From Blastococcus sp. CT_GayMR16 (GTDB lineage: Bacteria; Actinomycetota; Actinomycetes; Mycobacteriales; Geodermatophilaceae), in assembly GCF_004570875.1 (NCBI RefSeq), contig NZ_SPQK01000002.1, positions 248,001 to 312,000 on the forward strand: 64,000 nt of DNA, given 5' to 3'. Each line of letters begins with the position of its first letter. Position 1 is the first letter of the stretch. The position numbers were made by a program, and so were the translations under genes. Shown piece by piece: positions 1,190 through 16,842 of the stretch. Under the pieces are notes generated by a model that was not told the origin of the DNA, searched no databases, and saw nothing but the letters and a program-made list of their open reading frames with translations.

Positions 1190-2611
1190 GTGGGCACCAT
1201 CGCGTCGAGCGGTTCGACGATCGTCACAGCGAAGACAGGGCGCTTCCGGCGACGCCTCGCGATGGGGGTCATAGGCCTCGTCCTGCTGCTCATCGCGGGC
1301 ATCGTCGGCGTGGGCGTGCTGCTGACCGGCGGAGGTGGGGACGACGGCACCGACGCCGTCGCCGTCCCCGAGGCCGTGCTGCCCGACCTCGGCGACTCGG
1401 TGCCCGTGCTCGCCGCGCTCTCCAGCGACGCACCCGCTCCCGACCCGACGGTCCTCAGCAGCCAGCTGACCCCGCTGCTCACGGCGGCCGGTCTCGGGGA
1501 CGGCGTCTCCGCCGAGGTCGTGGACGTCGCCACCAAGGACGTCCTCCTCGACCTGGACGCCGCCGATCCGGCGACCCCCGCATCGACGGCCAAGCTGCTC
1601 ACCGCCGCGGCCGCACTGACCACGCTCGAGCCGTCGGACACCCTGGAGACGACGGTCGTCGCCGGCGCGACCCCCGGTGAGGTCGTCCTGGTCGGCGGCG
1701 GCGATCTCACGCTCTCCCGCACCGCCCCGTCCCAGACGTACCCGGGGGCGCCGACGGTCGCGGACCTCGCCACCCAGGTCGTCGCTGCGATGCCGGCCGG
1801 CACGGCGGTGACCCGCGTCGTCGTCGACAGTTCGCTGTTCACCGGCCCGCTGACCGCCAGCGGCTGGGGCACGGCCGATGCGCCGTCCAGCTACGCCGCC
1901 CCGGTCACCGCCACCGCCGTCGACGGCGCCCGCGTCAGTCCGGGATCGACGGCGCGCAGCGGCCAGCCCGGTCTGGACGCCGGCTCCGCGCTGGCCGACG
2001 CCTTGGGCGCGCGCGGCGCCACGGTGGTCCTCGGCGAGGCCCCTCCGGGGGCGAAGACGCTGGCGACGGTCCGCTCCGCGCCGATCTCCCGGCTTGTGGA
2101 GCAGGCCCTCTCGATGTCGGACAACATGCTCGCCGAGGCGCTCGCCCGGCAGGTGGCCATCGCCCGCGACCTCCCGGCCAGCTTCGAGGGGGCCGCGCAG
2201 GGCGTCACCGACGCGCTCCGGGAAGCCGGGATCGACGTCACGGGGGTCACGCTCTCCGACGGCAGCGGACTCTCCCGTGAGGACCGCGTCCCCGCCTCGG
2301 TCCTCACGGCAGTGGTCGGCGGCGCCGCCGACGACAGCCTGGACGGCACGTCCGCGATCCTCTCCGGGCTCCCGGTGGCCGGCTACGACGGCACCCTGTT
2401 CGACCGGGGCGAGGCCGGCAGCGCGCCGGGCACCGTCCGCGCCAAGACCGGCACGCTGCTCGGGGTGCACGCCCTCGCCGGCACGGTGGTGACCACCGAC
2501 GGGCGGCTGCTCGCCTTCGCCGTCGTGGCCGACGGGTCGGGCAGCGATGCCGCGGCGGAAGCCGCGCTGGACGAGGTGGCGGCGGCGCTGGCGGCCTGCG
2601 GCTGTCGGTGA
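1190..2611 (+). CDS. dacB: D-alanyl-D-alanine carboxypeptidase/endopeptidase (PBP4 type, S13)
   Basis: This is a cell-wall enzyme that trims D-Ala from peptidoglycan stem peptides or cuts cross-links. An N-terminal membrane anchor (about residues 24-47, rich in Leu/Ile/Val/Gly) follows a basic stretch. All three penicillin-binding motifs are present: PASTAKLL (SxxK nucleophile), [11 protein letters not shown] (SxN), and [15 protein letters not shown] (KTG). The 473-residue length fits the S13 family. The start is GTG; a GGAGG lies 13 nt upstream, a long spacing. It is followed by the metalloprotease gene after 30 bp, the same order as in mycobacteria. Confidence 0.92.
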
Positions 2612-2641
2612 CGGGGCCCTTCCACCGGGTACCGTGAGGCG

Positions 2642-3724
2642 ATGACTAGCGCCTCCTCGATGGTCGACTGGGATCTGGCCGGCCGCACCGCCCGGCGGCT
2701 GATGAGCGCCGGACCGGCCACGACACGTGACGAGGCCGCGGACGTCGTCCGTGAGCTGCACGAGGCGGCCGCCGTCGCCGTCGCGCACGTCGAGAAGCTG
2801 ACCGGTCTGCGACCCGTTCCCGGCGGACCGGTCCCCGAGGTCGCGGTCGTCGACCGCCCCGGCTGGGTCGACGCCAACACGAGCGGCATGGCCGCGCTGC
2901 TGAACCCGCTGGTCGAGGCGCTCACGGAGAAGCAGGACTCCAAGCCCGGGGCGATCGCCACCGCCATCGGGTCGCGCGCCACGGGACTGCAGGCCGGCGG
3001 GCTGCTGGCCTTCCTCTCCTCACGCGTGCTGGGGCAGTACGAGGTCTTCGGCACGGGAGGCCGCCTGCTCCTGGTGGCCCCGAACATCGTCGCCACCGAG
3101 CGGAAGCTCGGCGTCGATCCGGCCGACTTCCGGCTCTGGGTCTGCCTCCACGAGGTCACCCACCAGTTGCAGTTCACCGCGGTCCCGTGGCTGCGCGGCC
3201 ACCTCGAGTCCGAGATCGCCGAGTTCGTGGAGGCCACCGACCTCACGTCCGACGTGCTCCGCGAGCGGCTGCAGGACGTCCTCCGCAGCGTCGGGGACGC
3301 CATCCGCGGCGGGGAGGGGGAGTCGGAGGGGCTGATGGCCCTCATCCAGGACCCCGCGCAGCGCGCCGTCCTCGACCGGGTCACCGCGGTGATGAGCCTC
3401 GTGGAGGGGCACGCCGAGTACGTCATGGACGGCGTCGGTCCGGACGTCGTCCCCACGGTGAAGACCCTGCGCAAGCGGTTCGCCCAGCGACGCAAGGGCC
3501 GGGGCCCGCTGGACCGCGTCCTGCGGCGGCTGCTGGGTCTGGAGCAGAAGATGAAGCAGTACGCCGAGGGTCGGATCTTTGTCGGCGGGGTCATCGACCT
3601 GGTCGGCATGGAGGGCTTCAACCGCGTGTGGGAGGGGCCTGCGAACCTGCCGCGGCTCGAGGAGCTCACCGCCCCCGAGCTGTGGGTGGAGCGCGTCATC
3701 GGCCGCCCGGCCATCCCCGCCTGA
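2642..3724 (+). CDS. DUF2342 zinc-dependent metalloprotease-like protein
   Basis: This 360-residue protein has an HExxH zinc motif, LHEVTHQLQF at about residues 169-178, and a downstream SLVEGHAEYVMDG segment that probably supplies a third ligand. The family (DUF2342, annotated as a putative hydrolase or F420-biosynthesis-associated protein) is widespread in actinobacteria, and its substrate is not known to me. There is no signal peptide. The gene sits between dacB and tilS as in M. tuberculosis. The ATG has no Shine-Dalgarno but TACCGT lies 6 nt upstream, so it may have its own leaderless transcript. tilS follows after 19 bp. Confidence 0.88.
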   Translation: MTSASSMVDWDLAGRTARRLMSAGPATTRDEAADVVRELHEAAAVAVAHVEKLTGLRPVPGGPVPEVAVVDRPGWVDANTSGMAALLNPLVEALTEKQDSKPGAIATAIGSRATGLQAGGLLAFLSSRVLGQYEVFGTGGRLLLVAPNIVATERKLGVDPADFRLWVCLHEVTHQLQFTAVPWLRGHLESEIAEFVEATDLTSDVLRERLQDVLRSVGDAIRGGEGESEGLMALIQDPAQRAVLDRVTAVMSLVEGHAEYVMDGVGPDVVPTVKTLRKRFAQRRKGRGPLDRVLRRLLGLEQKMKQYAEGRIFVGGVIDLVGMEGFNRVWEGPANLPRLEELTAPELWVERVIGRPAIPA

Positions 3725-3743
3725 CCCCGGCTCGCCCGACGCC

Positions 3744-4751
3744 ATGACCGGCCCTGACCCGTCGGTCGCGCGGATCCGCAGCGCCGTCCGGCCAGCGCTG
3801 ACCGCCTCCGACCAGCCGGTGCTCGTCGCCTGCAGCGGGGGCGCGGACTCCCTCGCGCTGGCCGCCGGCATCGCCTTCGAGGCGCCCCGCGCAGGGGTAC
3901 CGGCCGGCGCCGTGACGGTCGACCACGGCCTGCAGGCCGGCTCCGACGAACGGGCCGAGGCCACCGCGACCCTGCTGCGCAACCTCGGGCTCGCCCCGGT
4001 CACCGTCGTCCGGGTGGAGGTCGCCCGGCTTGGCGGCCCCGAGGCCGCGGCCCGGACGGCCCGCTACGACGCCCTGCGGACGGCGGCCGCCGAGCACGGG
4101 GCCCGTGTCGCCCTGGGGCACACCCTCGACGATCAGGCCGAGACCGTGCTGCTCGGGCTGGGCCGGGGGTCGGGTCCCCGGTCGGTGGCCGGGATGGTGG
4201 CGGAGCGGCCGCCCTTCTGGCGCCCGCTGCTCGGGATCCGGCGCGCGACCACATCGACGGCCTGTGCCGCGCTCGAGCTGCCGGTCTGGGACGACCCGTG
4301 GAACGACGACCCGGCCTACACCCGGGTGCGGCTGCGGACCGAGGCGCTGCCGCTGCTCGAAGAGGTGCTCGGCGGCGGTGTCGCGCCAGCGCTCGCCCGC
4401 ACCGCCGGACTGCTGCGCGAGGACCTCGACCTCCTCGACGGGCTCGCCCGCGCCGCACTGGAGGAACTCGCCGGCGACCGCGGCCTGCCGGCCCGGGAGA
4501 CGGCTGCGCTGCCCGCCGCGCTGCGCCGCCGGGTGCTCCGCGACTGGCTGCGCGCAGCCGCCGTGCCGGACCTGCAGGCGGTGCACCTGGCCGCCGTCGA
4601 CGCGCTGCTCACCGACTGGCGGGGGCAGGGTCGGGTCGACCTACCGGGCGGCGCGGGTGTCGTCCGGACGTCTGGCACCCTGACGCTGGTTCCCGCGCAG
4701 CACGGCGGCGGGCCGCCAGCCACCCCCGACCTCGAGGAGCCTGATCCGTGA
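3744..4751 (+). CDS. tilS: tRNA(Ile)-lysidine synthase
   Basis: TilS ligates lysine to C34 of tRNA-Ile(CAU), so that AUA rather than AUG is read; the reaction uses ATP. The PP-loop motif SGGADS lies at residues 31-36, followed by [12 protein letters not shown] and the family segment [16 protein letters not shown] substrate-binding C-terminal region follows; the protein has 335 residues, short for the family, as is usual in actinobacteria. The start ATG at 3744 was chosen over an in-frame ATG at 3579, which would sit inside the upstream gene. The stop overlaps the hpt start (GTGA), implying translational coupling. Confidence 0.93.
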
Positions 4752-10669: not shown

Positions 10670-11863
10670 TCACACCGAGCCGGCGGTCTCGGGGACGGTG
10701 CCTTCCACGGATCGGCGAAGTGCTGCGTGCAGGGAGTCCGGGGTGAGGACGCCGAGGAACCGGTCCCCGTCGAGCACCGCGACCCAGCCCGCCTCCTCCT
10801 GGAGCATCACGGCCATCGCCGTCTTCAGCGACGCGTCCACCGGCACCCAGGCCTCCATGCGCCGGGCGGCGGAGCCGACGGTGCCGCCCCCGGTGGCCCG
10901 ATCGGCCGACAGCCACCCGTGCAGGTTCTCCGCATCGTCGAGGACGACGGCCCAGCGGGCGCCCGACCGCTCCATCGCCGCCCGCGCGTCGGCAACGCCG
11001 TCGCGGACGTGCACGACGGGCGGCCGCTCCAGGTCGGCGGTGTCGATGCCGGTCACCGCCAGCCGCTTGAGCCCGCGGTCGGAGCCGACGAAGTCGGCGA
11101 CGAAGGCGTTGGCCGGCCGGCCCAGGAGGTCGGCAGGCGTGGCGAACTGCTCCACGTGCCCGCCCTGGCTCATCACGGCGATGCGATCGCCGATCCGCAC
11201 GGCCTCCTCGATGTCGTGGGTGACGAAGACGATGGTCTTGCGCACGGTCTCCTGCAGCCGCAGGAACTCCGACTGCAGGCGCTCACGGACGACGGGGTCG
11301 ACGGCGGAGAACGGTTCGTCCATCAGGAGCACCGCGGGGTCGGCGGCGAGTGCGCGCGCGACGCCGGCGCGCTGGCGCTGACCGCCCGACAGCTGCGCGG
11401 GATAGCGGTCGGCATGCAGCGCCGGGTCGAGGCCGACGATGTCCATGAGCTCGTCGACCCGGCTCTGGATCCGCGACTTGCTCCACCCGAGGAGTCTCGG
11501 GACCGTGCCGATGTTGGTGCGCACCGTCTGGTGCGGGAACAGCCCGATGCTCTGGATGACGTAGCCGATGCGGCGGCGCAGCTGATCGGGATCCACGCGG
11601 GTGACGTCCTCGCCGTCGAGCAGGATCCGCCCGGTGGAGGGCTCGATCAGCCGGTTGATCATCTTCATCGTCGTCGTCTTGCCGCACCCGGACGGGCCGA
11701 CCAGGACGGTGAGCTCCCCGGCGGCGAAGGTGAGGTCGAGCTCGGCGACGCCCACGGTCCCGTCGGCGTAGACCTTGCTGACGCCCTCCAGGCGGATCTC
11801 GGCGGCCCCGCCCGTGCCGATCGGTGCGCTGGCTGATCCGGTCGACTGCGCAGTAGCGTCCAC
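10670..11863 (-). CDS. Glycine betaine/choline-type ABC transporter ATP-binding protein (OpuCA/ProV family)
   Basis: This is the ATPase of a quaternary-amine importer. It has Walker A VGPSGCGKTTT, Q-loop YVIQSIGLFPHQTV (a family hallmark), signature AQLSGGQRQRAGVARAL, Walker B VLLMDEPFSAVD and H-loop VTHD. After about residue 240 come CBS-like segments (ARWAVVLDD..., AGWVAVLDGDRFLGVLTPDSL); CBS modules in OpuA/OpuC ATPases sense ionic strength. The GTG start has AGGAGG 8 nt upstream. The gene is divergent from the two permease genes with only 26 bp between the start codons, unlike the usual co-directional order. Confidence 0.92.
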   Translation of the reverse strand: MDATAQSTGSASAPIGTGGAAEIRLEGVSKVYADGTVGVAELDLTFAAGELTVLVGPSGCGKTTTMKMINRLIEPSTGRILLDGEDVTRVDPDQLRRRIGYVIQSIGLFPHQTVRTNIGTVPRLLGWSKSRIQSRVDELMDIVGLDPALHADRYPAQLSGGQRQRAGVARALAADPAVLLMDEPFSAVDPVVRERLQSEFLRLQETVRKTIVFVTHDIEEAVRIGDRIAVMSQGGHVEQFATPADLLGRPANAFVADFVGSDRGLKRLAVTGIDTADLERPPVVHVRDGVADARAAMERSGARWAVVLDDAENLHGWLSADRATGGGTVGSAARRMEAWVPVDASLKTAMAVMLQEEAGWVAVLDGDRFLGVLTPDSLHAALRRSVEGTVPETAGSV

Positions 11864-11889: not shown

Positions 11890-12597
11890 GTGAGCGCGGG
11901 TTCGAGTCCGTCCGGCGGCGTGACGCTCGCGGTGGACGCGGCGCCGAACCCCTGGTTCGACCCTTCCTACGTGATCGACAACTGGGACACCATTCTGCGT
12001 TACCTCACTGAGCACGTGCGGCTCACCGTCTCCGCCGTCGTCCTCGGTGCCCTGATCGCATTGCCGCTGGCGCTCCTGGCCCGCCGCAGCCGCTTCCTCG
12101 CCGGCCCCGTCCTCGGCCTGTCGACGGTGATCTACACGATCCCGTCGCTGGCCATGTTCGCCTTCATCTTCCCGTTCACGGGGCTGTCGTCGAACACCGT
12201 GCTCATCGGGCTGGTGGCGTACTCGCTGGTCATCCTCGTGCGGAACTTCCTCGCCGGGCTGCAGGGCGTCCCCGACGACGTCCGTGAGGCCGGCCGGGCC
12301 ATGGGCTACGGGAACCTGCGCCTGTTCTGGCAGATCGACCTGCCGCTCGCGCTGCCCGCCTTCATGGCCGGGCTGCGGATCGCGACCGTCTCCACCGTCG
12401 CCCTCACGACCGTCGGCGTCCTCGTCGGGCACGGCGGCCTCGGCCAGCTGATCACCGGCGGCTTCAACGCGAACTTCTACCGCGCCGAGATCGTCACCGG
12501 CGCCCTCGGCTGCGTGCTCCTGGCGCTGGTGGCCGATGTGCTGCTGGCCGGCGTCGAGCGGCTGCTCACCCCCTGGGCGCGGCTGGTGCGGGCATGA
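11890..12597 (+). CDS. ABC transporter permease, betaine type (ProW/OpuCB family)
   Basis: This 235-residue permease has about five to six helices and the binding-protein-dependent inner-membrane signature, REAGRAMGYGNLRLFWQIDLPLALP (EAA loop, which contacts the ATPase). IYTIPSLAMFAFIFP is typical of this subfamily. The GTG start at 11890 has a weak GGAAAG upstream. It overlaps the next permease gene by 4 bp, so the two probably form a heterodimeric channel. The ATPase lies divergently upstream and the binding protein 147 bp downstream of the second permease. Confidence 0.9.
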   Translation: MSAGSSPSGGVTLAVDAAPNPWFDPSYVIDNWDTILRYLTEHVRLTVSAVVLGALIALPLALLARRSRFLAGPVLGLSTVIYTIPSLAMFAFIFPFTGLSSNTVLIGLVAYSLVILVRNFLAGLQGVPDDVREAGRAMGYGNLRLFWQIDLPLALPAFMAGLRIATVSTVALTTVGVLVGHGGLGQLITGGFNANFYRAEIVTGALGCVLLALVADVLLAGVERLLTPWARLVRA

Positions 12598-13328
12598 ACG
12601 CATTCGGGGACGCGTGGATCTACCTCAACGATCCGTTCAACTGGACCCGCGACAACGGGATCCTGGACCTCCTGGTCCAGCACCTCACGATCTCCGCGGT
12701 CGCGGTCCTCGCCGCCCTGCTGTTCGCCCTCCCGCTCGGCATCGCGCTGGGCACCTCCGGCCGCGGGGGCGGCGTCGTCGTCGTCCTGTCCAACGTGAGT
12801 CGCGCCATCCCGACGCTGGCGCTGCTCACCCTGTTCGCCGTCAGCCCGATCGGCTTCGGCCCACGGGCCACCACGATCGCGCTGGCCGTCTTCGCGTTCC
12901 CGCCGATCCTCACCAACACGTTCGTCGGCTTCCGCGGGGTCGACGCCGACGTCCGCGAGGCAGCCCGCGCCATGGGCCTGAGCCGGGGGCAGGTGATCCG
13001 CCGGGTCGACCTGCCGCTCGCGCTGCCGCTGGTCATGACCGGGGTGCGCACCTCGGCGGTCCAGGTCGTGGCGACGGCGTCCCTGGCCGCACTCGTCGCA
13101 GGAGGGGGGCTCGGCCGGATCGTGGCCCTCGGCTTCGGCCAGCAGGACTACGGCCAGATGATCGCCGGAGCGATCCTCATCGCCGCCCTCGCCCTGCTCA
13201 CCGAGCTGGCCCTCGTGCTCGTCACCTGGGCCGTCACGCCGGGGCCTCGCGTCTTCCCCTTCCTGCGGCCCCGCACCCGTCCCGTGGGAACCGAGCCCGA
13301 GCCGGTGGCCGCCGGGATGCCGCTGTGA
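12594..13328 (+). CDS. ABC transporter permease, betaine type (second subunit)
   Basis: This 244-residue protein is homologous to the preceding permease. The EAA loop is REAARAMGLSRGQVIRRVDL, and SRAIPTLALLTLFAV corresponds to the first permease's IPSLAMF region. Multiple hydrophobic helices span residues 25-220; the C-terminal 25 residues are Pro-rich and hydrophilic. The ATG overlaps the first permease stop (ATGA). Two non-identical permeases plus one ATPase and one lipoprotein match the OpuC layout. Substrate (betaine, choline, carnitine, ectoine or similar) is not decided by sequence. Confidence 0.9.
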   Translation: MNAFGDAWIYLNDPFNWTRDNGILDLLVQHLTISAVAVLAALLFALPLGIALGTSGRGGGVVVVLSNVSRAIPTLALLTLFAVSPIGFGPRATTIALAVFAFPPILTNTFVGFRGVDADVREAARAMGLSRGQVIRRVDLPLALPLVMTGVRTSAVQVVATASLAALVAGGGLGRIVALGFGQQDYGQMIAGAILIAALALLTELALVLVTWAVTPGPRVFPFLRPRTRPVGTEPEPVAAGMPL

Positions 13329-13475: not shown

Positions 13476-14471
13476 ATGCGCGCGCGATTCCGGTTCATTG
13501 CTCCACTTGCGATCGCAGTCGCGCTGACCGCGGCGTGCGGGGAGTCGGGCTCCTCGGGCACCGGGGGTGACAGCGACAGCAGCGCGGCGTCCGGTGAGAC
13601 CTGCGCGCCGGTCGCCGGCGACCAGCTCGTCGTCCTCGAGGACGACAAGCACCTGCAGAACGCCGACAACGTCATCCCGGCCGTGAACGCCCAGACCGCG
13701 AACAGCCAGCCTGCGCTGCTCCCGGCCCTCAACGCCGTATCGGGGGCACTCACCACCGACGACCTCGTCGAGATGAACGCGGCCGTGGACGTCGACCGGC
13801 AGAGCGCCGAGGACGTCGCCGCCGCCTGGGTCGAGGAGAGCGGCGTCGCCGACGGGCTGGAGCAGGGCAGCGGAGCGATCGCCGTCGGCGGCGCGGGCTT
13901 CACCGAGTCCACCGTCCTGGCCAACGTCTACGCCGACGTCCTGACGGCGGCCGGCTTCGACGCCTCGGTCCGCGAGGTGGGCAGCCGCGAGCTCTACCTC
14001 GAGGCGCTCAAGGGCGGCACGGAGATCCAGGCCTTCCCGGAGTACCTCGCCACCGTCACCGAGTTCCTCGAGGGTGACGACGCCACGCAGGTCGCCAGCG
14101 GGGACGTCGACGAGACCCTCACCGCGCTCGAGCCGCTGGCACAGGCCGCGGGGCTGGCCTTCGGTGAGCCGTCCGACGCCGTCGACCAGAACGCCTTCGC
14201 CGTCACCACGGCCTTCGCAGACAAGGTGGGCGTCGAGACGCTCTCGGAGCTGGCCGAGGCCTGCAGCGACGGGTCGCTGGTCCTGGGCGGTCCGGCCGAG
14301 TGCCCCGAGCGCCCGTTCTGCCAGCCGGGTCTCGAGGAGACCTACGGCCTGAAGTTCGCCGACTTCCAGGAGTACGGCGACACCGGCGGCCCGCTCACCA
14401 AGGCCGCCATCCAGCAGGGCGAGGTCTCGATGGGGCTGGTCTTCAGCTCCGACGGCGCGCTCGCGCAGTAG
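13476..14471 (+). CDS. Quaternary-amine ABC transporter substrate-binding lipoprotein, circularly permuted OpuAC domain
   Basis: A signal peptide ends in lipobox LTAAC (lipidated Cys21), followed by a Gly/Ser linker. Residues 49-124 (LVVLEDDKHL, VIPAVN, LLPALNAVSGALTTDDLVEMN) match the part that is normally the C-terminal end of OpuCC/ProX proteins. The normal N-terminal part (IAVGGAGFTEST, then REVGSRELYLEALKGG and FPEYLATVTEFL) starts only at residue 135. The protein ends at GLVFSSDGALAQ, exactly where the canonical order would continue into LVVLEDDK. This looks like a clean circular permutation. It is exported, membrane-tethered and presumably feeds the permeases upstream. Confidence 0.88.
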   Translation: MRARFRFIAPLAIAVALTAACGESGSSGTGGDSDSSAASGETCAPVAGDQLVVLEDDKHLQNADNVIPAVNAQTANSQPALLPALNAVSGALTTDDLVEMNAAVDVDRQSAEDVAAAWVEESGVADGLEQGSGAIAVGGAGFTESTVLANVYADVLTAAGFDASVREVGSRELYLEALKGGTEIQAFPEYLATVTEFLEGDDATQVASGDVDETLTALEPLAQAAGLAFGEPSDAVDQNAFAVTTAFADKVGVETLSELAEACSDGSLVLGGPAECPERPFCQPGLEETYGLKFADFQEYGDTGGPLTKAAIQQGEVSMGLVFSSDGALAQ

Positions 14472-14476
14472 GAGGA

Positions 14477-14509
14477 CCACCCCTCCCGAGCTCGGCGCGG
14501 GAGGGGTGG
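14477..14509. terminator. Bidirectional terminator
   Basis: An 11-bp perfect stem (CCACCCCTCCC with GGGAGGGGTGG) and an 11-nt loop lie between the binding-protein gene and the convergent DUF1684 gene, 5 bp past the binding-protein stop. It can serve both genes. Confidence 0.75.
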
Positions 14510-14519
14510 AGGGTGGCCG

Positions 14520-15125
14520 TCAGTAGTAGCCGCCGGGGGGCAATTGCTCCCCGGCGGCTACCTGCGTCGCCAGCCGGTTGCCCTCCGGGGCCAACGGGCA
14601 CGACCAGCGCGGGTCGTAGGTGCACGACGGGTGGTAGGCGAAGTTCAGGTCCACGACCAGCCGGCCACCGGTCCCGCCCAGGTCGGCGCCCTTGACCGTG
14701 TCCAGCAGGTAGCGGCCGCCGCCGTACGTCGTTCCGCCCGCACTGCCGTCGCGCAACGGGAGGAAGACGCCGCCGCCGTAGCTGCCCAGCCACCACACGT
14801 CCAGCCGCCCCACATCGCCGAGCTGTACCGCGCCGATCCGGTCGAAGGGCACCACGCCGTCGGTGGCGGTGGGCACCTCGAGCCGCTGGGCTTCGGCCGG
14901 CTCCACGACGACGTCGAACCGCAGGGCAGGGTCGTACGGCGCGAACGGCAGACCGCGGAAGGCCTCCCGGGCCGCCTCGTCCAACGGCGAGTGTGGGTGT
15001 GTGGCGAACAACTCGTCGCGACCGTCGCGCCAGGTGCGCCAGCCGGACTCCGGGTCGCTCGCGCGCCGTGCGCCGGCGTAGAGGGCGCTCACCCGGCGGC
15101 GCCAGTCGAGCAGCGTCAGCGTCAT
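14520..15125 (-). CDS. DUF1684 protein
   Basis: This 201-residue soluble protein has the family's C-terminal signature, DLNFAYHPSCTYDPRWSCPLA with AP-GNRL after it; the Cys, His and Asp residues are conserved but the activity is unknown to me. An upstream YGGGRYLLDTVKG segment is also typical. There is no signal peptide. ATG 15125 follows a weak CAGAGT box 6 nt away, perhaps leaderless. The gene is convergent with the transporter and divergent from the DUF6779 gene. Confidence 0.85.
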   Translation of the reverse strand: MTLTLLDWRRRVSALYAGARRASDPESGWRTWRDGRDELFATHPHSPLDEAAREAFRGLPFAPYDPALRFDVVVEPAEAQRLEVPTATDGVVPFDRIGAVQLGDVGRLDVWWLGSYGGGVFLPLRDGSAGGTTYGGGRYLLDTVKGADLGGTGGRLVVDLNFAYHPSCTYDPRWSCPLAPEGNRLATQVAAGEQLPPGGYY

Positions 15126-15216
15126 GCGGCCACTCTGGCAGCAGTCCGGTCACGACGCGGCTGCGACCTCGGTGATCGACCGCGCACGGAGAGCTTCCGC
15201 CGCTAGGCTGGGGTCC

Positions 15217-16842
15217 ATGCCCCGCCGTGAGGACGACGACGTCGCCCCCCGGCCCGGCGGCTTCAGCACCCCGGCGCTGACCCTCGTCGGCGGGTTCGCC
15301 CTCGCCGCCGCAGCCACCCTCGCGGTCTTCCTGACCGACAACCCCCAGTACCTCCGGATCGCCGTCGTGGCGGTGGCCTGGGCCTTCGTTCTGGCCGCCT
15401 TCGCCGCAGGTCGCCGCGGCACCGACCGGGCGGCCGCCGCGGCCCGGGAGCTGGAGCTGCGCCGCGCCTACGAACTCGAGCTCGAGCGGGAGGTCGCCGC
15501 CCGGCACGAGTACGAGCTGGAGCTGGAGAACGAGCTCCGCCGCGAGACCGAGGACTCGATGCGCTACGAGCTCGACGCGCTGCGCGGGGACATCGCCGCG
15601 CTGGCGAGCCTGCGTGACGAGGTCGCCCGGGTGTCCGAGCTGCGCGGTGACCTCGCGGCGCTGACCTCGCTGCGCGACGAGGTGGCGCGGGTCGCCGCGC
15701 TGCGGGACGACGTCGCCTCGCTGAACTCGCTGCACGAGGAACTGGGCCAGCTGGCCGATCTGCGCGCCGACATGGGCCGCCTCCGCGCCGAGCTCACCGA
15801 GCAGCTCTCCAGCGAGATGCTGGTCGAGCGCATCGTCATGCGGACCCAGGCCAGCCGGATGCCGGTCGACCAGGGCCGGCTCGACGCCCCGTCCCGCGCC
15901 CTGGAGGGGACGTCGAGCTGGGCCGACGACGTCCCGCCCCGTGAGCTCACCGGGGGATGGCCGGCGGTCCGCCTCGACGAGCCCCGCGGGACCCAGCAGT
16001 TCGAGCAGGTACGGGTCGAGCGCGCCGGACCGCCCCCGCCGGTGCCGGTCCCGACCTCCGCCGGCTCCTGGCGTACCCCGGACCGGGAGGCCGAGCATCG
16101 CCCGTGGGATGCCCCGCTGCCGGTCCCGCCGTGGGAGACCCCCGTCGTCCCGCCCACGGCGACGTTCCCGGCCGCGGCCCCGCCGTGGGAGACGCCTGTC
16201 GTCCCGCCCACGGCGACGTTCGCCGCTGCCGCCCCGGCGTTCACCCCGCCGCCGGTTCGGGACGAGCCCGTCGGCCCGCACCTCTGGACCACGATCGCCC
16301 GGCACGAGGAGGGCGCGCACGCCGGCCGGCACGGTGCGCACGAGAGCCCCGCGGCGCCGCCGACGTCGGCCTTCCCGATGTCGCCCTCGTACCGGGCCGC
16401 CGACGTCGCCCCCGCTCGTCCGGCCGTCCCGCCGCCGACCACGCTCACGCCGCCGCCGGTCGAGCCGCTGCCGTCGCCCCTGGAGTGGCTGGCCGCGCGT
16501 TCGCAGCTGGACCCGCAGACGTCGCCGTCGCAGCGGCCGGTGCCGCACCGCCGCCGCCGGGACGACGGCCTCTCCGCGGACCCGGTCGATCCCGCGGCCG
16601 CCCCGACCATGCAGCGGCCCGCCGTCCCTCGCGCGAAGCCTGGCCTGCGGATCGACGACCGCGGGGGATACCGCGTCGCCGTCCGCGAGGAACCGGACGA
16701 GCCCACGACGCAGGACACCCGGCTGGCCGAGATCCTGGCCGAGAACGGCGTCACCCCGGCCCCCGGTGGGCGCCGGCGCCGCCGCTACCGCGACGAGGAC
16801 GAGCCCGACGACGTCCTGGCCCGGGTGCTCGGCCGGAACTGA
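15217..16842 (+). CDS. DUF6779-type membrane protein with coiled coil and Pro-rich tail
   Basis: The 541 residues show three regions. Residues 1-70 hold two hydrophobic helices (LTLVGGFALAAAATLAVFL and IAVVAVAWAFVLAAFAAG), which resemble the DUF6779 domain. Residues about 75-215 are a charged coiled coil with an approximate repeat of L-SLRDEVARV/ALRDDVASL units. The remainder is Pro/Ala-rich and low complexity, including a near-perfect duplication of PPWETPVVPPTATF. The ATG at 15217 has TAGGCT 7 nt upstream, so the transcript is probably leaderless. Possibly a cell-envelope or division-associated scaffold, but this is a guess. Confidence 0.8.
   Translation: MPRREDDDVAPRPGGFSTPALTLVGGFALAAAATLAVFLTDNPQYLRIAVVAVAWAFVLAAFAAGRRGTDRAAAAARELELRRAYELELEREVAARHEYELELENELRRETEDSMRYELDALRGDIAALASLRDEVARVSELRGDLAALTSLRDEVARVAALRDDVASLNSLHEELGQLADLRADMGRLRAELTEQLSSEMLVERIVMRTQASRMPVDQGRLDAPSRALEGTSSWADDVPPRELTGGWPAVRLDEPRGTQQFEQVRVERAGPPPPVPVPTSAGSWRTPDREAEHRPWDAPLPVPPWETPVVPPTATFPAAAPPWETPVVPPTATFAAAAPAFTPPPVRDEPVGPHLWTTIARHEEGAHAGRHGAHESPAAPPTSAFPMSPSYRAADVAPARPAVPPPTTLTPPPVEPLPSPLEWLAARSQLDPQTSPSQRPVPHRRRRDDGLSADPVDPAAAPTMQRPAVPRAKPGLRIDDRGGYRVAVREEPDEPTTQDTRLAEILAENGVTPAPGGRRRRRYRDEDEPDDVLARVLGRN

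Follow-up and report, generated by a model that had tools for sequence, protein, structure and literature searches.

A circularly permuted, probably lipid-anchored OpuCC/ProX-type substrate-binding protein in Actinomycetes, and further chain orders among its relatives

The window considered here, a stretch of 64,000 nucleotides from Blastococcus sp. CT_GayMR16 (contig NZ_SPQK01000002.1, positions 248,001 to 312,000), carries at 13476-14471 on the plus strand an ATG-started open reading frame (ORF) for a predicted OpuCC/ProX-type lipoprotein of 331 amino acids, and this protein is a circular permutant of its family. The cut in the chain lies at the end of D2, one of the two lobes (D1 and D2) of the fold, directly before the second lobe-to-lobe crossover, and the old C- and N-terminus are joined via a short Gly-rich joint. 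Taken as a whole, the reading that we consider likely is that of a working, presumably lipid-anchored binding protein of an OpuC-type importer, in which the permuted order (hereafter P1) would have a single origin in Actinomycetes and would be accompanied by a putative Cys43-Cys263 staple, the other permuted orders of the family having arisen separately.

A circular permutation had been proposed from the sequence alone, and comparison with known profiles and structures has borne it out. The PF04069 (OpuAC) profile matches the protein at 7.8e-38 and 131 bits against a cut-off of 21.2, the match being split in two, with its best stretch pairing residues 135-330 with profile positions 3-184 of 257. 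In A. fulgidus ProX (1sw2) the order is swapped, residues 130-302 matching chain positions 3-172 and residues 50-124 matching 200-273. Once the protein has been rotated, positions 2-285 match 1sw1 chain positions 3-273 and positions 9-285 match EgtUC 10-274, each as the single unbroken alignment that a reordered chain had been expected to give. A profile from 51 canonical proteins was used to score every one of the 289 rotations of mature residues 43-331: the unrotated protein reached 234 bits over profile positions 2-196 of 271, and the best rotation 326 bits over positions 2-270, with 15 rotations (start residues 121-135) lying no more than 5 bits below the best. Four canonical controls, themselves members of the profile, scored highest unrotated (within 0.3 bits), and shuffled versions of the window protein peaked at 4.2 bits (176 of 200 shuffles gave a score). 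A colinear full-length match of the standard kind is rejected by the split unrotated and the continuous rotated scores, and chance resemblance by the shuffles; the protein does not have the colinear order of the canonical PF04069/OpuCC-ProX family. The layout of segments originally read from the ORF stands as well, but the new chain does not begin directly at the canonical residue that would follow, the tail C43-D49 being without a canonical counterpart. The parts of the protein are as follows.

13476-14471, plus strand: circularly permuted OpuCC/ProX-type substrate-binding protein, a predicted lipoprotein, 331 amino acids (PF04069, 1sw2/1sw1 matches, rotation scores)
13476-13538, plus strand: signal peptide with lipobox-like LTAAC and Cys21, probably the lipid-bearing residue (sequence, Cys21 conservation)
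13539-13601, plus strand: variable Ser/Gly tether, residues 22-42 (model confidence, range of tether lengths)
13602-13604, plus strand: class-specific Cys43, proposed disulfide partner of Cys263 (Cys in 93 of 93 P1 proteins)
13623-13847, plus strand: canonical C-terminal block (crossover 2 and the C-terminal part of lobe D1), now N-terminal, residues 50-124 (structure-chain alignments)
13848-13877, plus strand: new joint between the old C- and N-terminus, residues 125-134 (rotation scores, alignments)
13878-14162, plus strand: canonical N-terminal block, the N-terminal part of lobe D1, residues 135-229 (PF04069, EgtUC mapping)
14163-14189, plus strand: crossover 1 between the lobes, residues about 230-238 (mapped to EgtUC linker 332-340)
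14190-14471, plus strand: lobe D2, residues 239-331, now the C-terminal part, which stops at the cut (EgtUC mapping, model)
14262-14264, plus strand: class-specific Cys263, in the D2 helix-to-strand loop where the P2 class, described below, opens (class comparison)
14301-14321, plus strand: Cys276 and Cys282 (ECPERPFC), a pair common to most relatives (class comparison)

LTAAC conforms to a lipobox-like pattern, and its Cys21, present in all 15 aligned orthologues, would bear the lipid. In the AlphaFold2 (AF2) model the predicted local distance difference test (pLDDT) falls below 50 at residues 16-39, and the chain is confidently placed from about residue 41. The distance from the lipid cysteine to Cys43 varies between 15 and 47 residues (92 proteins); Cys43 stands 8 residues before the first strand in 92 of 92. 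P1 proteins carry two cysteines beyond those of most relatives: Cys43 is a cysteine in 93 of 93 P1 proteins, and so is Cys263, the latter position being Cys in 0 of 53 canonical, 0 of 13 P2 and 0 of 2 P3 proteins. Cys276 and Cys282 are both present in 93 of 93 P1 proteins, each position being Cys in 48 of 53 canonical and 11 of 13 P2 proteins. In the stretch that was counted, all 105 P1 ORFs contain exactly four cysteines, Cys276 and Cys282 making up the remaining two; among 62 canonical ORFs, 38 have two, 16 have three, five have four and three have none. This pattern suggests that a Cys43-Cys263 disulfide ties the cut end to D2, at the loop where P2 starts.

The P1 order extends well beyond the genus. 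When the GTDB representative genomes were scanned with an orthologue alignment, at least 585 related stretches were found, and the window's order is present in all of the best 80, which were kept. By record name, 78 of these loci belong to Actinomycetes (Geodermatophilaceae 45, Demequinaceae 11, Promicromonosporaceae 11, Cellulomonadaceae 5, Micromonosporaceae 4, Sporichthyaceae 1, Motilibacteraceae 1). P1 operons also occur in records named 'Bacillus sp. AZ43' (marked UNVERIFIED) and 'Spirochaetaceae' bin (L058 and L118), both of which are probably mislabelled or mixed. Proteins that match the window protein colinearly over its full length were found in 15 of the 16 genomes of the genus, the sixteenth being 84% complete, in at least 17 of 394 genomes drawn from the class and in at least two of 296 drawn from the phylum, the last two counts being lower bounds, with 5-7 candidates scored per genome among the matches listed. 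Restriction of P1 to one genus is rejected by the scan and the class survey, and the early suggestion that the order may be lineage-wide has been confirmed, the proposed count of homologues sharing it being supplied by these loci and by 93 distinct P1 proteins. In a plasmid collection 335 records match, with a best identity below 60%, and all 30 matches listed are two-piece, the pattern expected of the canonical order against the window query. The window's own genome has a further relative in canonical order, of 299 amino acids (locus L189, 4803-5702; G000 contig C17, 22302-23201), around which no match to the window's permease and ATPase genes was found within 11 kb.

P1 is not the only altered order in the family, a point that, like the repeated origin, the class-specific cysteine pair and the partly lost cage described below, goes beyond the sequence-only reading. 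The protein was split into segments C, A1, A2a and A2b, each with its own profile, and their order was read in the ORFs of 190 loci. P1 is C-A1-A2a-A2b (105 ORFs, 93 distinct sequences); the canonical order was found in 64 ORFs, with A2a undetected in two; a second permuted order, P2, is A2b-C-A1-A2a (20 ORFs, 13 distinct); and a third, P3, starts mid-A2b (2 ORFs). A lipobox-like Cys lies ahead of the new start in 5 + 5 P2 proteins and both P3 proteins, and in four further P2 and four further P3 proteins, the reading in the 13 P2 covering neither L147 nor L151 and L159, the latter two being cut by contig ends. P2 occurs in at least 12 of 396 genomes of the phylum and, within a single family, in 6 of 16 genomes; in one taxonomic order, with 99 genomes, P3 was found in six and P2 in four. 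A canonical gene coexists with P2 in at least six genomes (G052, G077, G083, G200, G211 and G286). A further P2-like match (G836) and a P3-fragment-like sequence at a contig end (L249, G783) stand outside these counts.

All three permuted orders are opened in the same lobe. According to the consulted parts of the EgtUC report, lobe D1 consists of residues 232-331 and 445-503 and lobe D2 of residues 341-432, with two linkers between them (PMC9732360). In EgtU numbering P1 is cut at 426 in 15 of 15 rows, its tail leaving 426-430 hard to separate, P2 at 364-367 in 16 of 16 rows (one row cut by a contig end, L159, excluded) and P3 at 395-398 in 6 of 6 rows. On the window model the P1 cut lies between the C-terminal helix 327-330 and the first strand 51-53, the P2 cut between helix 256-262 and strand 268-272, and the P3 cut between helix 283-290 and strand 294-299, all of them helix-to-strand loops of D2. 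The mapping therefore supports a predicted lipidated N-terminal end on D2, rather than D1, in P1, P2 and P3; that the lipid-anchored end had moved to the other lobe was already part of the sequence-only reading, and it agrees with a canonical start in D1 and a P1 start at the end of D2. Crossover 1 is the only lobe crossover still spanned by continuous chain in the window protein. The two-lobed type II fold itself is seen in the AF2 model and in matches to structures of the Protein Data Bank in two overlapping parts.

The ligand pocket is retained. At Tyr190, Thr193, Asp237, Asn239, Glu275, Arg279, Phe323 and Asp64 the P1 proteins carry the commonest canonical residue, and P2 and P3 agree with the canonical proteins at most pocket positions, Thr193 being replaced by Ser in 11 of 17 P2 and 4 of 6 P3 rows and Arg279 being kept as Arg in 9 of 17 P2 rows. 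With the pocket kept as in the canonical relatives, binding and docking should resemble theirs. The sequence-only reading had suggested that the shifted anchor may alter docking on the permeases. The quaternary-ammonium cage of EgtU (Y341, Y419, Y443, F293, N339) is about half lost: in the window protein only the F293 (Tyr) and Y419 (Phe) positions are aromatic, and in most rows of every class Y341 is replaced by Asn, Y443 by Asp or Glu and N339 by Asp. With these cage residues replaced, the ligand of the actinobacterial group is probably other than betaine, choline or ergothioneine, the acidic residues beside the aromatic pair suggest a different cation, and both the label 'glycine betaine' for the whole group and an OpuCC-like ligand for the window protein appear doubtful.

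Permutants usually arise by tandem duplication of a gene followed by loss of the outer ends, and P1 may have arisen in this way once in Actinomycetes from the gene of the importer operon. Locus L180 (G670) has two OpuCC-like binding-protein genes in tandem, at 2556-3512 and 3534-4520 and 21 bp apart, in one canonical importer operon, which shows that the duplication step occurs in this operon type; L180 is not a P1 ancestor. Its second gene is strongly diverged, possibly as an intermediate of permutation or as a second binding protein for one permease. By the mapping, D1, once split over both chain ends, becomes a single continuous segment followed by a continuous D2, one lobe crossover is left as continuous chain, and the predicted lipid tether departs on the D2 side instead of on D1. 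The putative Cys43-Cys263 disulfide would staple the new N-terminal tail to D2 and so give back the second connection between the lobes. The P2 and P3 orders would have arisen separately in related operons, opened at other D2 helix-to-strand loops. Several observations weigh against this account: the lobe boundaries were carried over from EgtUC, to which the aligned sequences are only about 25% identical; Foldseek, which is bound to chain order, covers the model only partly (TM-scores of 0.22-0.49, relative to query length, across the 50 rows listed); the tandem pair is seen in one operon only, outside the P1 lineage; the cysteine pair and the permutation fall on the same branch, so that their link is a single, unrepeated coincidence; and P2 and P3 do without extra cysteines.

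The rearrangements may also have been neutral, duplication and loss of ends occasionally producing a permutant that is tolerated; D2 loops would then withstand being opened, and selection would have acted neither on where the anchor sits nor on the cysteines, an explanation that we take seriously while holding it somewhat less probable than its opposite. In its favour, the consulted text on TpMglB-2 describes a natural permutant that still binds its ligand and closes in response to it (PMC4990184), a flexible tether, about 23 residues long, could render the position of the anchor irrelevant, and the pocket residues of P1 are those of most canonical rows. Against it speaks that all three cut sites fall within D2, which makes up 34% of the mature chain (the chance being about 0.04 for three of three sites and about 0.004 for five of five events, rough figures that assume equal tolerance at all positions, which does not hold), that P2 lineages kept apart by the trees open at one loop within a few residues, and that the class-specific cysteine pair is invariant. 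Selection on the anchor can be proposed only tentatively: repeated opening and re-closing, in at least five events at three D2 loops, would have shifted the tether from lobe 1 to lobe 2, the P1 disulfide would replace the cut link and fix the tether at the loop where P2 starts, and the anchor position would be a selected trait.

The number of events was estimated from trees of the binding proteins, all of which were first reordered to canonical, and from a tree of the two permeases adjoining each gene, whose sequences are independent of that chain order. The first two binding-protein trees include 25 of the 93 distinct P1 proteins and the larger one 15; L180_canb, the tandem neighbour in L180, with a very long branch, is in the first tree and was dropped from the later ones. 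In the second tree (92 rows) P1 forms one group (94/90), P3 one and P2 four. By the approximately unbiased (AU) test, forcing all 13 P2 rows into one clade costs a log-likelihood difference (delta lnL) of 163 (p 1e-30), by which a single origin of all P2 proteins is rejected; a clade of the 11 rows without L150 and L186, those of f17, f58 and f25, is not rejected (p 0.10). The permease tree covers 76 of the 157 loci at which both permeases were found, including 17 of the 93 P1 loci among these 157. It is missing one P3 locus out of two, together with some P2 and canonical loci at which the distance rule did not pick up the permeases, and has exact duplicate rows for some loci, which leave the group count unchanged. 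P1 is again one clade (100/99) and P2 falls into four; joining the P2 of f17 and f58 is marginal (p 0.047), and adding f41 is rejected (delta lnL 80, p 1e-19). The larger binding-protein tree (99 rows) needs eight changes, five involving P2 and two involving P3, of which well-supported branches force four P2 changes and one P3 change. The f15 P2 row (L186) counts as separate on account of starred branches in both trees and of the test on all 13 rows. A cautious count is at least five apparent permutation events: one each for P1 and P3, and three for P2 (f17 together with f58 and f25; f41; f15).

The canonical order is taken as ancestral because it is common to archaeal, Bacillota and Pseudomonadota proteins, the trees alone not separating gain from loss. 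We consider it unlikely that a permuted order was inherited once and the canonical order regained several times, which would mean that events have been overcounted. Parsimony counts do not tell gain from loss, and the joinings of f17, f58 and f25, not rejected in one tree and marginal for f17 and f58 in the other, leave room for fewer events; against this stand the canonical order of those distant relatives and the two firm rejections, of all 13 P2 rows as one clade and of f17, f58 and f41 together. A degraded or chimeric nonfunctional product of fusion, frameshift or mis-assembly, for which only the odd order speaks, is so improbable as to be negligible, since frameshift and assembly error are excluded by the identical order in 93 distinct proteins, the pocket residues are invariant and the operon is conserved; neither such an error nor a colinear full-length match, the two findings named beforehand as fatal to the claim, was encountered.

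The neighbourhood of the window gene is that of an OpuC-type importer, with an adjacent ATPase and two permeases, the binding-protein gene starting 147 bp downstream of the two overlapping permease genes.

10670-11863, minus strand: divergent ProV-like ATPase with CBS domain (profile match, neighbourhood)
11890-12597, plus strand: permease 1 of the ABC importer, BPD_transp_1 (profile match, neighbourhood)
12594-13328, plus strand: permease 2 of the ABC importer, BPD_transp_1 (profile match, neighbourhood)
14477-14509, no strand assigned: perfect 12-bp inverted repeat with a 9-base loop, 5 bases past the stop codon, terminator-like, without a T run (read from the sequence)

An ATPase/permease/permease neighbourhood is found at 77 of 80 named P1 loci and likewise around canonical relatives; the permuted protein therefore stands in for its canonical counterpart in an importer of the same type. 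A scan for sigma-70 promoters and terminators reported no site, and the inverted repeat at 14477-14509 was not called by it either. Further downstream, 15124-16842 holds an ORF of 572 amino acids with two hydrophobic stretches, coiled-coil-like repeats (RDEVARV/RDDVASL) and a long Pro-rich tail.

Among known systems, the closest are OpuCC, AfProX and EgtUC (PF04069, type II, subcluster F-III), to which the window protein is homologous over its full length once rotated and with which it shares the operon parts. It resembles EgtUC in Thr193 (T296), Glu275 (E375) and Arg279 (R379) and in the aromatic Tyr190 and Phe323 at F293 and Y419, and differs from it in Asn239 for Y341, Asp64 for Y443, Asp237 for N339, Ala for K242 and Phe for G244, as well as in its chain ends. 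B. subtilis OpuAC, likewise a glycine-betaine-type binding protein with altered chain order, is reported as permuted in comparison with other binding proteins for glycine betaine (CPSARST, PMC2395249). Work on its permutation was reportedly also done by Horn in 2006. In the window model, residues 43-261 line up with OpuAC 63-272 (2b4l) without any change of sequence order, a rough guide to range given that one row (2b4m_A) starts at chain residue 12. By this aligned range OpuAC is opened at a P2-like loop, unlike the window protein, which is opened at the end of D2; cut at about 426-430 in EgtU numbering, as against 364-367 in P2, the window protein is not opened before the first long D2 strand, as OpuAC would be by that range. 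Because the OpuAC chain end falls at the P2 end, the OpuAC order appears to have been invented anew in P2. No sequence match to OpuAC appeared in the searches that matched the window protein to ProX and EgtUC chains. Permutation among the glycine-betaine-binding proteins OpuAC, E. coli ProX and A. fulgidus ProX has been reported from structures, as far as the consulted text goes (CPSARST, PMC2395249). TpMglB-2 of Treponema pallidum is also a natural permuted, membrane-tethered binding protein, of sugar, and in the consulted passages its authors raise a link between permutation and anchoring (PMC4990184). In contrast to the window protein, which matches PF04069 and OpuAC/ProX-type chains, TpMglB-2 is described there as type I (type Ic) and cluster B, with an N-lobe permutation and an extra fourth crossover, in another family (PMC4990184). 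No report of the P1 or P3 order was found in the open-access literature, a weak negative drawn from the consulted parts of open-licence papers only.

Natural permutants are thus already known, and what is unusual here is the number of events and the lobe that they share: OpuAC and TpMglB-2 are single cases, and here several apparent events lie within one family. Annotation that depends on order, such as profiles and domain diagrams, reads such permutants as split matches. With canonical sister genes in the same operon type, the origin of permutants, the loops that tolerate opening and any effect of the tether position on delivery to the permease can be compared directly.
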